Source: a virus. From it: 24,196 nucleotides of DNA. The notes under the pieces were generated by a model, which saw only the letters and a program-made list of their open reading frames with translations, was not told the DNA's origin and did not search any database. The position numbers and the translations under genes were made by a program. Positions within the stretch are counted from its first letter, which is position 1, and every line of letters starts with the position of its first letter. The stretch lies in the IMG/VR virus record IMGVR_UViG_3300012920_000256, positions 1 to 24,196 of that record; one strand, written 5' to 3'. This document shows positions 6,178 through 21,844 of this stretch, one piece after another.

Positions 6178-9100
6178 TTAGTTCTTAGTAATTGTGGATG
6201 AGAAAGTAATGAGGACAGTATTTGTAGCAGGAACGTTAGCTCCTAATGTAATATTTAACCTTGCTTCATTTCCAGCAGTAAATTCAAACTCTGGAACAAT
6301 CAATTGATAGTCAGTTCTCAAGTTTCCATACTCTGTATGGAATACATCTGTACCATTATCTGTTACACCAAATTCGATAAACTCTTTGTTTCCATCTACT
6401 TGGTTTTCTGCAACTACAACTACCTTTGCTCCTTTAGCAATAGTAGTGTCATATATGTTGGAACCACCATTATTTGATGCACCTTTAGTCAATGAAATTT
6501 TCTCAGAAGCAATTTTAACATCTGCAAGTTCAAATTCTTTAAGATCTCCATCGAAGACCTTAACTCCATTATATGTTCCAGTTCCAAAACCAGTGTTTAG
6601 ATATACATCACCTTGATCATCCAATCTAAGGATAGGATCTACATAAATTCCTGTGGAAACACCAAGATCGAAATATGGTTTTGAAGTATGTAGGAAGGTC
6701 TTTGTAGCATCAGTGTTATCAAATGTGGTTTCTGCATTATTAAATGTCATTAAGTTTGCAGTAATCTCAAACTGTTGACTTGTTTGAGATCTGATTGTAT
6801 CTACAGCAAAGAAATCGAGTGCAGTCGTGCTGAGCTGCATTGTGTTGCTTCCATCATTGTAGAAGTACAAGATGTTTTCATTTGCACCAGGAACAGTTTC
6901 AGGAATAATATAAGTATTTTGATCAACGTCTTTGACACCACCAAGAGAACCCCAGTTGGTTCCGTCATAACCTTCATATGTTAGATTGGTTGTGTTGTAT
7001 CTAATAGAACCTTGCTCTGCAGTTCCTCTCTCACCAGTAGTTCCATTTGGAATTACAAGAGATGTTGTAGAATCAATATTAACTTTTTTACCAGAGTTAG
7101 GTCTTAGAACTAGATCGTTAATGTCTGTAGATACTGCATTATCTGCTAATCTTAAATCACCATTAACAACTAATGGTAAATCACCTAGAGGTCCAATTCT
7201 CAGTTCTTCGATATCCTCAAATGTTAGAGGAGCAACTGCGATTTGTGAGTATTCTAGTTGTGCAGAACCGTTAGGTAGAGTGCCACTTGTATGTGTTGGT
7301 TCACTACCACTTGTAGCAGTAGTACCAGCTCCACCAACAGGAACAACATAAAGGTTGTTCTTATACTTTACATATTGTCCTTCCGTTACAGGAACGTTTG
7401 CCGCCCACTCTGTATATGCAGGAGCAGTTACGTTCACAGAACGAACTTTCTTCATGTTGACAAATTCAAGATGATTAGGAGTAAACCTAACTGTATTGAT
7501 ATTGTCATTGATAAACCATAAGGTATTATCATTAGAACCTACACTTTGTTCTGCTAGGATGTATGTGTTACCATCTAGGTCACGGACACCACCTAGAGAT
7601 GACCATGAACCAGTTCCTGAACTATAACCTTCATATTGATTTGTATCAGTGTTGTATCTAATACAACCATCTTTTACAATACCAGCAACAGGTCTTTCTG
7701 ATGTATTACCAGATGGTACAGCAATAGCAGTATTAGATAAGACATCTGCAATTCTACCTGTATCAGGAACGAACTTAATATCAAATCCGCCAAGTGATTT
7801 GAATGCATTGTCAACATTTTCAATCTTTAAGTAATCACCAATTCTTACCTCACTACCCTTGAGGATATTAGTAACAGTAAGATCACCTGTTGTTGCTGCA
7901 AACTGAACCTTAGAACCTATGTTTAATGTAGCAGCAGTAACATTAACAATTCCAGTGAGAGGATCATCAACAGCAATATCAATATTTCCTGCAGCAGGAC
8001 CAGCAAATGTACCGCATGTAATTGCAGTAGATGTTAACATTGTGTTAACAGTTGCATTAGCAATGGTTGCAGCAGTTGCTTCTGCTAGTGGTGTTGTAAG
8101 TTTTTGTACATTAAAGAAACCATCTTGTACAGTTCCTTTAACAACTTCTTCTACAATAACATCGGTTACAGATAACGAGAATCCACTACCAAATGTCTTA
8201 GGATTATTTGTACTAACTGTAATCTGTGCTTCATCGTTGTCATCACCACCTTCGTTTTGGTGATCTACATTTTCTGTGGCACAGAAGTAATAAAGAGTAG
8301 GTGTTGTATCTGAAACTTTAATTGTTACATTTGTACCATCAACAGTAACACCATCAGTATACGAAGAACCAAAGATGTTGATGATAACATCACCCGCTGT
8401 AGTTGGGTTTGCACTCAATGTCAATTGAGTTGCGCTGTCTACAGATGCAATAGTTGTATTGTCTGCGAAAATACCATCACCAGATACTTTCGATACAACC
8501 ATGCCAACGCTAATTCCGCTGGTTGATGCTACAGTAATAATTTTACTATTAGTTGCTAATGTAGTAGAAAGATTTTCTCTCCTACTAGGTGCCCAGATAC
8601 CATCTCTAAATTTAGATAGAGCAAAGTCATGACCACCATTTGTTCCATCACTAAGATCGAATGTATAACTGTTACCAGAATACACCGTCCAAGATGGTGT
8701 CATTACTGCTCCGTTACCATCATTTAGATCAATGAAGTAACGATATTCGGTTGCAGCAGTATCAATATCATATCCTGTTGTTGGAGAACTTACATTTACA
8801 AGAAGATCTCCTGCCTCAAATCCAAACCTATCTACTACAATGTAATCAACATTTCCAGCAGCAGTTGCAACTTTACGAACAACTACAGGAGTACCAGCAG
8901 CATTGACAGAGTTAACTGTGATTGTCAGGTTATCTGCAGGTGTAACACCACCAACAGATGCGCCAGGAATTGTGATGGTATCATTTTCTGCGTAGAAGGA
9001 TCCTTCAGTTCCTGTAGTAATTACGGCAGACAGAATAGCACCAGTGTTGTCTCTCTGTACATCAAATGTAGCACCAACACCATTTCCAGATGTTGCACTC

Positions 9101-11679
9101 TGTGCTACCCCATTATATACACCATCAGATGCAGCTGCTACGACTGTAGAAACTGTTACTGTAGATGCTAAGATAGATCCACCTGCATCTCTTACTGTAT
9201 CTCCTACAGTAAACGTAGAAGCAGGAATTGCATTACTTACAAAATTGATCTTATCAACCTGTAGATTAGTAACTGCATATACTTCTGGTTGTACAAGATC
9301 AAACTCACTTACTAATAGAGTATCACCAATAGTATATCCATTACCACCTTCTACAATACTTACATCACTAACAAAACCTAATGTTCCGACTGTATATTGG
9401 AATCCACTACCACCACCATACTCTGGTTCAAAGTTGACAACCATTGTACCAGCAGTAACTGGATTAATGGAAATTATTAAAGTAGTTGCATCTAGAATAC
9501 TAGTAACTGTTGTACCAGCAATAATTTCACCGTTACCACTTACTTTAGTAACGAGCATTCCAGGAACAATATTTGCCGTAGAAGCAACTGTTAGATAACT
9601 TAAATTAGAATTAACAATTTTAATATCAGCATTACCAGGAATAGTTGGTCCCTCTGACATAGTGAACTGTGTTGCACTATCAACACTAACAACAGTTACA
9701 CCACCAGGAATCTGTCCTGGATTATTAATGTTTTGTACAATTTCAACACCATCACCAACTTCAATACCAGTAGTATCAGAAACTGTAACTTGAGGACTAC
9801 CAGCATCAATTGTAGAAACACTAATAGCAAGATCATTACCACCAGATCCTGGTTGAGCACCTGCAGAACCACCTAGAGTATTACCTGCAATATAAAGTAA
9901 ATCACCTGGTAAGTAACCACTACCAGCTGCTACAATAGTTACACTGTCGTAGAAAGAATTACCACCACCTTCTGAGATAACAACATTAACAATTAATCCA
10001 CTACCATTACTATTGATATTTTGTACAGAAATATTATTGTATGTTCTAGCATTACCAGTAGCATTACCTGTAAACTGAACTGCGGTAACACCTGCTGTAG
10101 AGGTGAAGGTAACACCATTAAAGGTCAATTCTCCTCTAGCATATGTGTTAACGTTACTAACTGCAGTTGCTAATGTGAGAACATCGCCAGTTTGATATCC
10201 AGTACCAAAATTGGAGATTTGATCTAATGCTTGAATAGAACCAAAATTACCACCAAGAGTAACTTGGAAACCAGAACCTAATGTTCCTGCATTAGCAGTG
10301 TTTGCATCATACAAATCTGCTGCATCAACACTAATAACATCTCCTGCTTGATAGAGACCATCGCCAGGAGCACTAACTAAGAATTCTGTGACACTACCAC
10401 CAACAGTGTCGATTTCCATTTGGAATCCACTTTGCTGTGAATTTGGATCTGAGTGAGTAATAGCACCACCCATATTTGGGTGAACATTACATCCATAGTA
10501 AATTACAGCGTTTGCTGGTGCTGCTGGTACTGCATATGTAATAGTTCTATTAGTAGCAGCAAAGTAACCAGCGATAAATCCTGCTGCAGTTACTGTAACT
10601 CCGTCTAGATCATATGTAAAACCATCTGCAGCATCTAAAACAGTGTTAGAATCATCTTGTGTAGATGAGAAGAACATCGGGTGTGAACCGTTTGTTGCAT
10701 CACTAACATCAAAGATATAAGTTTTACCTTTTAGTAAGTTAAAATCTCCTCCTTCAAATCCGTCAAGGAAATACTTGTTACCTAAAGAAGATTTAACTAC
10801 AAATGTTTGTGTTCCTGCAAGAGGAATAGTTCCTGTTAAAACCTCGCCTGCTTGATACTGAGATGTGACAGATACGAATTCACTACTATCAACTCCACCA
10901 ACAGGTTGTACACCACCATTCTGAACACTGAGATTCATCAGCATTCCTGTTCCAGTACCACCAGTCATTGGGATACTCTTGAATACCCCGTTTGGATAGT
11001 TGGTTCCAGAAGTTACTGTAGCGGCAAATGAACTAACAGTAATATCAGCAGTCATCTGCTGACCACTACCACCTGTTACTGCTACGTTTGTATATCCACC
11101 AGGACCATAGTTGATACCACCATTAGTAATAGAACCACCAATCTGATCAACTGTAAAGTCAATAAGGGCACCTGTTCCATTACCACCAAGAACAGGAATG
11201 TTTAGATATACGCCAGGTGTATATCCAGTTCCATTGTTTGTAATAGATCCACCAAATCCATCAACCTCAATACCTAAGGTAGCAGAGTCACCAGTACCAC
11301 CAATTGCAGCAATTCCAGTGTATGTTCCAGCATCGTAGTTAGAACCAGCAGTTGCAATTGCAATGCCTGTTGTATCGAGGCTATTCTTCTCAATTACAAA
11401 ATCTCTATAATACTTGACGTTTGCCGCTGAGAGATCAGATAATTTTTTACTGTTACTGGCAAATCCTAGTACACCTGTACCATTCCTGTAGATACCCAGT
11501 AGAGCATCATTTACAAATGCCAAACTTGGCGAGGATACTAGACCATCACCTAGTTTTAAGTTTCCTGTAGATAGATCAGATCCACCTGCAGTAACGTTGA
11601 AAATCTGAGCACTAATTTCATTAATCTTCAACCTTTGCTGTTCAAAGGTATCAGTACGTGCTACATTAGTTGCTGGCAT
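6178..11679 (-). CDS. Large modular tail-fibre-like virion protein, 1833 aa
   Basis: The complete gene begins at MPATNVARTDTFEQQRLKIN, an N-terminus I recognise as the virion-attachment type of marine T4-like fibre proteins. The ATG at 11679 overlaps the end of the 68-residue gene by 14 bases. Modules in order: N-terminal anchor (1-105); four 37-38 residue Gly-rich repeats (112-262); a cupredoxin-like domain (about 300-411; H333, C397, H400, M403); further G-x-G-Y units; two roughly 60-residue TVxSTxGI modules (628-749); a second, degenerate cupredoxin-like domain (about 977-1150) containing a third such module; two IRYNT...YEGY repeats (1323-1406, 1545-1624) with a carbohydrate-binding-like insert near 1427-1478; and a beta-rich C-terminus. 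It probably makes a long fibre for host recognition. No transmembrane segment is seen. The receptor is unknown and the copper idea is inference. Confidence 0.85.
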   Translation of the reverse strand: MPATNVARTDTFEQQRLKINEISAQIFNVTAGGSDLSTGNLKLGDGLVSSPSLAFVNDALLGIYRNGTGVLGFASNSKKLSDLSAANVKYYRDFVIEKNSLDTTGIAIATAGSNYDAGTYTGIAAIGGTGDSATLGIEVDGFGGSITNNGTGYTPGVYLNIPVLGGNGTGALIDFTVDQIGGSITNGGINYGPGGYTNVAVTGGSGQQMTADITVSSFAATVTSGTNYPNGVFKSIPMTGGTGTGMLMNLSVQNGGVQPVGGVDSSEFVSVTSQYQAGEVLTGTIPLAGTQTFVVKSSLGNKYFLDGFEGGDFNLLKGKTYIFDVSDATNGSHPMFFSSTQDDSNTVLDAADGFTYDLDGVTVTAAGFIAGYFAATNRTITYAVPAAPANAVIYYGCNVHPNMGGAITHSDPNSQQSGFQMEIDTVGGSVTEFLVSAPGDGLYQAGDVISVDAADLYDANTANAGTLGSGFQVTLGGNFGSIQALDQISNFGTGYQTGDVLTLATAVSNVNTYARGELTFNGVTFTSTAGVTAVQFTGNATGNARTYNNISVQNINSNGSGLIVNVVISEGGGNSFYDSVTIVAAGSGYLPGDLLYIAGNTLGGSAGAQPGSGGNDLAISVSTIDAGSPQVTVSDTTGIEVGDGVEIVQNINNPGQIPGGVTVVSVDSATQFTMSEGPTIPGNADIKIVNSNLSYLTVASTANIVPGMLVTKVSGNGEIIAGTTVTSILDATTLIISINPVTAGTMVVNFEPEYGGGSGFQYTVGTLGFVSDVSIVEGGNGYTIGDTLLVSEFDLVQPEVYAVTNLQVDKINFVSNAIPASTFTVGDTVRDAGGSILASTVTVSTVVAAASDGVYNGVAQSATSGNGVGATFDVQRDNTGAILSAVITTGTEGSFYAENDTITIPGASVGGVTPADNLTITVNSVNAAGTPVVVRKVATAAGNVDYIVVDRFGFEAGDLLVNVSSPTTGYDIDTAATEYRYFIDLNDGNGAVMTPSWTVYSGNSYTFDLSDGTNGGHDFALSKFRDGIWAPSRRENLSTTLATNSKIITVASTSGISVGMVVSKVSGDGIFADNTTIASVDSATQLTLSANPTTAGDVIINIFGSSYTDGVTVDGTNVTIKVSDTTPTLYYFCATENVDHQNEGGDDNDEAQITVSTNNPKTFGSGFSLSVTDVIVEEVVKGTVQDGFFNVQKLTTPLAEATAATIANATVNTMLTSTAITCGTFAGPAAGNIDIAVDDPLTGIVNVTAATLNIGSKVQFAATTGDLTVTNILKGSEVRIGDYLKIENVDNAFKSLGGFDIKFVPDTGRIADVLSNTAIAVPSGNTSERPVAGIVKDGCIRYNTDTNQYEGYSSGTGSWSSLGGVRDLDGNTYILAEQSVGSNDNTLWFINDNINTVRFTPNHLEFVNMKKVRSVNVTAPAYTEWAANVPVTEGQYVKYKNNLYVVPVGGAGTTATSGSEPTHTSGTLPNGSAQLEYSQIAVAPLTFEDIEELRIGPLGDLPLVVNGDLRLADNAVSTDINDLVLRPNSGKKVNIDSTTSLVIPNGTTGERGTAEQGSIRYNTTNLTYEGYDGTNWGSLGGVKDVDQNTYIIPETVPGANENILYFYNDGSNTMQLSTTALDFFAVDTIRSQTSQQFEITANLMTFNNAETTFDNTDATKTFLHTSKPYFDLGVSTGIYVDPILRLDDQGDVYLNTGFGTGTYNGVKVFDGDLKEFELADVKIASEKISLTKGASNNGGSNIYDTTIAKGAKVVVVAENQVDGNKEFIEFGVTDNGTDVFHTEYGNLRTDYQLIVPEFEFTAGNEARLNITLGANVPATNTVLITFSSTITKN
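6807..7713 (-). repeat. Two IRYNT...YEGY modules with an insert between
   Basis: Copies lie at 7713-7462 and 7047-6807 in the fibre gene. Both read (C/S)IRYNT, xYEGY, W-S/G-SLGGV-R/K-D, NTYI, then N-xLxF-x-ND and a short beta segment. The first is followed by a roughly 50-residue insert with GQYVKYKNNLYVV and PTHTSGTLPNG, resembling small carbohydrate-binding folds. Confidence 0.75.
10894..11346 (-). repeat. Four tandem 37-38 residue Gly-rich repeats in the fibre gene
   Basis: Residues 112-262 of the fibre protein form four consecutive units, each beginning G-x-(N/G)-Y-xxG, with a central GG-x-G-(T/D/Q) and often ending GGSIT or similar. Lengths are 38, 38, 37 and 38. The pattern suggests a repetitive beta shaft. 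Confidence 0.8.
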
Positions 11680-20029: not shown

Positions 20030-21844
20030 TCAGAACTCGATTACTAGTTTGATGTCTTCAATCTGGTCAGGAGCACGAGTAATGAGACGACGGTTCTCTA
20101 CGTAGATCACATTACCAGAGTTATTTTCGATCTCTGGGTTAGCAAGACCACTTGCAAATGTGGAACCTAATAGAGCAGAACCATAACTTGTATCTACATT
20201 ACCAGAAGCGGTAGAAGATTCTCCAGTAACAGCATTAGAACCATTGCTCTCGAATGCTCTTACAACACCCTGATCTGTGTGTGCATCATTGGTTTGGATG
20301 TACTTAAGAACACCAGCAGTTGTAGAACCGCTATCTAGTGTCCATGATACAACTGTACCATATGCTGTACCACCACTTACAGTTTGTTGGATCTTCTCGT
20401 CAACAGAGAAATCTGCGTTAGCACCAGTAATCTTAAGTGCCTTTAGACCAGAAAGTGTGTCATCTGTTGCAAAGGTTGTAGTACCATAGTTGTATGGATC
20501 AGCAATGATACCGATACGACGGAAGTCGTTATCTACAGGGAAGTCACCTTGACCTTCAGAGTAAGTAAGACGAATGTTAGTCATAACACGCTTACCATTT
20601 AGTTCTGTCTCGTGATCGGAACCGTGACCACCTGCAGGAGGTAGAACAATTTCGATAGCACCAACAGCAGTAGCACCAGTTGTGACTGCGCTGCTTAGAC
20701 CAGCATCAGAGAAGAGGTTACCATTGCCTAGAAGAACATTAGCATAGGTATAACCAGTTCCACGAGCTTCAATCTCAGCAGAGGTGATTGTACCTGCACC
20801 ATTTGTTACAAACTTAACCTTACCACCAGATCCATCACCTTTAATAGATGTGTATAGGGTCTGTGATGCAGGAAGGTTAGCACCAGCGTTCTCAACTAAA
20901 GCAACATCAACAGCACCAGCAGTAGCAAGAGCTACGGTTGCCTGTCTAGATGAGTTAGCAGGAAGAACGATTGGCATGAAGTCCGAAGAAAGGAACTTCA
21001 GTACATCATCAGTTGGGATGGTGTACATATACTTCCAAATATAACCAGCACCAGTTGTCTCTGTGTAGATACCAGTAGCAGAATCATAATTAGCACCTGC
21101 TACAGTTGGTTCTTCAGTAGCGTTTTGTCCAGTGCTGTTGGAAGGGTCTTCACCATTGTAAAGACACTTGAATACTTCATATGCGGAGTTCATGACATAG
21201 AACTTAGCATCTGCAATGCTGTTTGCACCTGTTGCAGTTTGCTTACCAATTTGACCACCGCCACCAGGAGTAGCAGAGTAGTCAGGTTTCCACATGTCAA
21301 ACTTAGGGTTAGCAACTAGATCCCAGTTGTAACGACGGATAACTGTTCTTGCAAAAGAATCAGTAATACGCTTTGCGGCAACTAACTCGTCATATAGTGC
21401 TCTCTTCTCGCTTTGGTTGTCAAGAGGAAGAGGTGGAACATCTTCAGTAGCGTAACGATATACACCAGAAACTGCTTCGGCACCAGTGTCAGAACCGCCA
21501 GCACCACCACTTCTGCCTTTTAGAGCAGAACCAAGAGGAGGAGCAGAGTTAACACCGTTGCTACCAAAAACGTCGGTCAAAAGAAGGGCACTATCATAAA
21601 CTGCAGCAACTGTGGCACGGAAAGCGGTGGAACCATATGTTCCAACATACACTTCGTTGCCAACTACAAACGCCGTCGAATTTTGTGTGTGAACCTCTAA
21701 GTAAGCTTTCCAGGGTTGTGGGCGTCCCACAAAGAAATACATTCTTGAGCGTTCCGCGCTGGTATCGTTGGGACCTTCCGTTAACGATTCCAGGAATTGT
21801 TTAGCATTAAAGATTCTAAACTTATCAGAGATGATAGCAGCCAT
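20030..21844 (-). CDS. 8: Baseplate wedge protein gp8, T4-like, 604 aa
   Basis: A homologue of the T4 baseplate wedge subunit gp8, which joins gp7, gp10, gp6, gp53 and gp25 in building the six wedges around the tail hub. As I recall the T4 sequence, matching landmarks occur in order: IISDKFR at residues 4-10 against IVTSKFR; GRPQPW at 40-45 against GRSEPW; VIRRYNW near 168 against VIPRRDW; GAGYIWKYMYTIPTD near 263-278 against GDGYVWEYLFEIPPD; FRRIGIIADP against FRQISIITNP; and the C-terminal VIYVENRRLITRAPDQIEDI against MIYMENRPPIIMAMDQTEEI. At 604 residues it is nearly twice T4 gp8 (334). The extra length includes Gly-rich inserts, one with a G-x-G-Y unit, as expected for the cyanophage type. 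The start is fixed by N-terminal similarity. A doubled late promoter lies just upstream. Confidence 0.94.
   Translation of the reverse strand: MAAIISDKFRIFNAKQFLESLTEGPNDTSAERSRMYFFVGRPQPWKAYLEVHTQNSTAFVVGNEVYVGTYGSTAFRATVAAVYDSALLLTDVFGSNGVNSAPPLGSALKGRSGGAGGSDTGAEAVSGVYRYATEDVPPLPLDNQSEKRALYDELVAAKRITDSFARTVIRRYNWDLVANPKFDMWKPDYSATPGGGGQIGKQTATGANSIADAKFYVMNSAYEVFKCLYNGEDPSNSTGQNATEEPTVAGANYDSATGIYTETTGAGYIWKYMYTIPTDDVLKFLSSDFMPIVLPANSSRQATVALATAGAVDVALVENAGANLPASQTLYTSIKGDGSGGKVKFVTNGAGTITSAEIEARGTGYTYANVLLGNGNLFSDAGLSSAVTTGATAVGAIEIVLPPAGGHGSDHETELNGKRVMTNIRLTYSEGQGDFPVDNDFRRIGIIADPYNYGTTTFATDDTLSGLKALKITGANADFSVDEKIQQTVSGGTAYGTVVSWTLDSGSTTAGVLKYIQTNDAHTDQGVVRAFESNGSNAVTGESSTASGNVDTSYGSALLGSTFASGLANPEIENNSGNVIYVENRRLITRAPDQIEDIKLVIEF

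Follow-up and report, generated by a model that had tools for sequence, protein, structure and literature searches.

A cupredoxin domain with a likely type-1 copper site in a baseplate/tail structural protein of a marine T4-like phage

Analysis of a 24.2-kb virus record with 38% G+C (here called the window, the whole stretch of DNA that was analysed) revealed that a large structural protein of the baseplate or tail of a marine T4-like phage contains a cupredoxin domain, of the build seen in the blue copper proteins of plants and bacteria. The domain most likely holds one copper ion: the evidence is best read as a type-1 copper site on the virion, from which we infer that copper is bound.

The cupredoxin-like domain is carried by an ORF of 1833 aa located at positions 6178–11679 of the window, minus strand. 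Comparison with PHROGs returned a match of 1704 bits to phrog_6005, annotated “virion structural protein,” which spans residues 693–1832 of the ORF, together with a weaker baseplate wedge match (phrog_32294, 192 bits) and a further match to phrog_708. A baseplate wedge subunit is encoded in the same window at positions 20030–21844, minus strand (phrog_438, 578 bits), and further genes of the window have their matches among virion structural and tail fibre families. Both homology and the structural gene neighbourhood thus identify the ORF product as a virion tail or baseplate protein. The domain had earlier been described, in a sequence-only reading of the window, as part of a phage fibre; this is only partly right, since “fibre” is too specific given the virion structural and baseplate wedge matches, and the protein is better called a large baseplate/tail structural protein. 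Among named DNA records, the nearest was Synechococcus phage ACG-2014h, with a 75% match across a neighbouring stretch. The source virus is a marine T4-like phage, and its host is probably, by inference, a marine picocyanobacterium.

The domain covers residues 289–412 (10444–10815, minus strand), slightly wider than the interval of about 300–411 proposed from the sequence-only reading, which had nevertheless recognized a real domain and had placed all four candidate ligands exactly where they were found here. These are H333 (first histidine, 10681–10683), C397 (cysteine, at the end of the penultimate strand, 10489–10491), H400 (second histidine, 10480–10482) and M403 (axial ligand, replaced by Gln in several close homologues, 10471–10473), all on the minus strand. 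They follow the type-1 ligand order His...Cys-x(n)-His-x(m)-Met/Gln and fall at the correct strands. An intradomain disulfide was ruled out as a role for C397, which is the single cysteine of the domain.

The motif C-x2-H-x2-M occurs once in the 1833-aa ORF and likewise once across all large ORFs of the window combined, and a histidine 55–75 residues ahead of such a motif was obtained in 0 of 20,000 protein shuffles. That the window copy on its own has no database match might favour a chance motif match, but this explanation is refuted by the shuffles together with the homology, fold and ligand conservation results described below, and its probability is negligible.

Structure prediction with AlphaFold2, using an alignment of 56 family members, yielded a model of the domain with a pLDDT of 96.7 and a pTM of 0.90. 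The fold check suggested along with the sequence-only reading thus returned, with very high confidence, the Greek-key β-sandwich that characterizes the cupredoxin superfamily. The top VIA structural match to the model was rusticyanin (Z 8.7, 98 residues aligned, 2.5 Å), followed by cupredoxin domains of laccases and nitrite reductases, and all 50 VIA rows among the matches listed were cupredoxin-fold copper proteins. Rusticyanin was also the top Foldseek match in the PDB (E 4.7e-4). A Z near 8 would be modest by itself; the weight is carried by the uniformity of the match list and by the sequence evidence. In the model, H333 lies ahead of strand 47–50, C397 closes strand 104–109, and H400 and M403 sit in the loop before the last strand, a predicted placement that is the arrangement of type-1 copper proteins. 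When the domain model was searched against BFVD, structural matches were also found to “Beta-sandwich proteins” of Marseillevirus LCMAC201 and Pithovirus LCPAC records, which suggests, at the level of predicted structures, that the domain may reach giant viruses.

Direct searches of the window domain against Pfam, NCBIfam and PDB sequences gave no match; the window copy did not reach the gathering score of PF00127 (Copper-bind), nor did the domain match the amicyanin model TIGR02657, to which three family members gave a weak NCBIfam match (best E 0.011). Only profiles and intermediate sequences linked the domain to known families. Aligned with hhalign, the family profile matched host plastocyanins at E 5.7e-5, with the H, C and H ligand columns in register, and with a set of marine cupredoxins, drawn from Prochlorococcus, Bacteroidetes and other sources, the E value was 2e-17. 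Most of these marine cupredoxins score above the Copper-bind cut-off in Pfam or give a significant match to that family, and their own profile matched plastocyanin (9e-7) and amicyanin (3e-4) in the PDB. In addition, a virion copy of the domain in ACG-2014j hits PF00127 itself, scoring 21.4 bits where the cut-off is 21.2. The domain is therefore connected to the cupredoxin superfamily by sequence both through intermediates leading to PF00127 and directly to plastocyanins. On the combined strength of homology and predicted fold, the window domain is a true cupredoxin relative, and the original description of it as cupredoxin-like is borne out, with the ligand columns aligned along the profile chain to Copper-bind and plastocyanin.

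A tblastn search with one family member located relatives in at least 304 phage records, nearly all from phages of marine picocyanobacteria, with a few from pelagiphages and Methylophilales phages. All 12 complete genomes examined contained between one and five copies of the domain. The proteins bearing these copies are labelled gp9, gp7/baseplate wedge, tail fibre, tail spike or structural; in S-SM1, for which a virion proteome exists (PMC3037559), copies occur in gp9 and in its neighbour, and T4-GC 398/399 proteins are among the carriers. The domain was also observed within an ORF labelled peptidase S8 in S-BM3, and in P-SSM2 the tail spike copy adjoins an ORF with a PF00082 (subtilase) domain. 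Further occurrences were found on contigs assigned to marine bacteria and archaea, some of which may be viral. Among them, ORFs of ∼340–430 aa with the domain are present on contigs assigned to Prochlorococcus and to Marine Group II archaea, and may be either genes for cellular surface proteins or viral pieces.

Conservation of the ligands was assessed on 116 unique complete copies in which all four ligand columns are present. The pattern HCHM was found in 89 and HCHQ in 15 of these, so that 104 of the 116 carry one or the other. Phages with HCHM copies include P-SSM2, S-ShM2 and S-SM1. The patterns used in two broad scans contained none of the ligand residues, and hence the pattern step of these scans did not select for ligands. 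With the sequences weighted for relatedness (63 effective sequences), all four ligands place between 4th and 7th in conservation among 101 columns, surpassed only by three structural F/Y/G positions, in a family whose mean column identity is 27%. Glutamine is a natural axial alternative in type-1 sites (PMC4059628), and the change from Met to Gln has occurred in at least two separate branches of the tree. HCHQ is found among the closest homologues, including sequences 68–72% identical to the window domain.

The cysteine is missing from nine rows of the tree, and in eight of them the second histidine is missing too; that histidine is kept in all of the other 87 rows, where the cysteine is present. 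Counted on the phylogeny, these co-losses amount to two independent events on well-supported branches, too few for significance, and the joint loss is a trend rather than a proof. Comparison of homologues, proposed earlier as a check for ligands lost independently, placed the ligands among the most conserved columns and did not show them lost singly; the phylogeny-corrected analysis of co-loss is underpowered. Degenerate copies without the full ligand set are held in baseplate proteins, with the patterns KGTL (S-CAM22), HSDH and NSNI. Some baseplate-type copies without the cysteine and second histidine still match the family, and in S-CAM22 and S-SM1 an intact and a degenerate copy are adjacent within one protein.

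Since ligand-less members persist, the fold can serve without metal. It is conceivable, though unlikely, that the domain is a β-sandwich derived from a copper protein that acts in the virion as a rigid spacer or as a contact module and is normally metal-free, its ligands persisting for packing or through recent ancestry. The degenerate baseplate copies fit such a role, as do the Ig-like sandwiches that tail proteins often bear and the assembly of these proteins in the cytoplasm. Against it, the ligands outrank almost all core positions in a very divergent family, the methionine is exchanged for glutamine and only rarely for other residues, as fits a metal site, and the losses of cysteine and histidine coincide. 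Ligand conservation and the exchange of Met for Gln thus weaken, without removing, the earlier doubt that the fold might be kept for structure only.

Cupredoxins can also bind zinc in vitro, and occupancy by a metal other than copper (Zn, Ni or Fe) was weighed, with the metal serving, for instance, as bait for uptake receptors of the host in the manner of the “Ferrojan horse” iron tails. HxH motifs are reported to hold iron in T4 gp37, and the same has been proposed for the tails of cyanophages and alterophages (PMC11705849). The window domain has no HxH motif, and a His2-Cys-Met/Gln set carried by a cupredoxin fold is what type-1 copper sites typically show; another metal is accordingly regarded as highly improbable.

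A second, divergent copy of the domain is present in the same protein at residues 979–1150 (8230–8745, minus strand), where it matches the family profile as two halves (HMM matches with E 1.6e-19 and 3e-12) that flank an inserted domain. The inserted domain, at about residues 1035–1104 (8368–8577, minus strand), is β-rich and was modelled with a pLDDT of 82–94, whereas the cupredoxin halves were modelled poorly (pLDDT about 45–60). Residues H1017, C1133, H1140 and E1143 of the second copy are invariant in an alignment of 17 homologues, and its loop, C1133-x6-H1140-x2-E1143, is unlike that of the first copy. The second copy might be a variant metal site.

For the first copy, binding of copper at a type-1 site remains the preferred explanation. 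The full set of His, Cys, His and axial Met on a loop of amicyanin length would hold one copper ion per domain, and the assembled particle would then display several copper sites. That the ligands are conserved among close relatives in hundreds of marine phage records suggests that the particles of these viruses carry copper. Type-1 copper sites are not normally loaded in the cytoplasm. Because phage proteins assemble in that copper-poor compartment, the metal would be taken up late in infection or once the cell has lysed. The likeliest role, modelled on the use of the same face in plastocyanin and amicyanin, would be that of a metal-stabilized surface module whose exposed His/Met face docks to another virion protein or to the host surface; this role is the least certain part of the proposal.

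Cupredoxins are electron carriers, several copies of the domain occur per genome, and several cyanomyoviruses adsorb in a light-dependent manner (PMC2984593), all of which could favour a redox function. It is unlikely that marine phage tails carry redox-active type-1 copper centres that act in adsorption or particle survival, for example as a redox- or light-linked attachment switch or in protection from superoxide, which would give the virion working electron-transfer sites. A virion redox device that exchanges electrons or detoxifies reactive oxygen at adsorption, coupled for example to light or to the redox state of the host, is judged very unlikely. Pelagiphages and Methylophilales phages, which infect hosts other than oxygenic phototrophs, carry the domain as well, and this argues against a role confined to photosynthesis; moreover, no redox partner was seen among the virion genes, and variants with an axial Gln would differ in potential.

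Within the non-subscription literature searched, no account of virion cupredoxin domains was found. If copper is bound as proposed, the tails of marine phages, and of cyanophages above all, would contain copper, given several domains per genome and multiple copies in each baseplate, and copper would join the debate over the metals of phage tails and of the sea. Copper binding would also offer a way into tail proteins whose present labels are hypothetical or structural, and a simple way to ask whether metals act in adsorption. The domain further provides a conserved signature with which baseplate and fibre genes of marine phages can be annotated.

Among known systems, amicyanin (TIGR02657; 1aac) has the same ligand order and C-x2-H-P-x-M spacing, with the loop CTPHPFM in place of CNVHPNM in the window domain. 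The amicyanin loop given in the sequence-only reading was confirmed against PDB chains at positions 92–98 of 1aac. Amicyanin is a free periplasmic electron carrier, whereas the window domain is part of a giant virion protein. Plastocyanin (PF00127) shares cupredoxin homology with the ligands in register, but its loop is C-x2-H-x4-M and that of the window domain is the shorter C-x2-H-x2-M. Phage plastocyanin is known as a metabolic gene (PMC3037559). Cyanophage petE is a stand-alone gene with an ORF of about 107–134 aa, in contrast to a domain inside an 1833-aa structural ORF. Separate petE-like genes were present in 9 of 12 phage genomes, and identity of the window domain with phage petE plastocyanin was ruled out because these phages encode petE as a gene of its own. 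The rusticyanin and laccase cupredoxin domains are the best structural matches (Z 7.8–8.7), but they share only about 12% identity with the window domain, have longer ligand loops and show no sequence family match to it. The Gln axial ligand of the stellacyanin type is shared by the HCHQ copies among the closest homologues; these copies are not phytocyanins, and Gln arose inside this domain family. The iron-bearing HxH tail fibres of T4 gp37 and alterophage R22Y likewise place metal ligands on a tail protein, but with another fold, another metal and another motif (PMC11705849).
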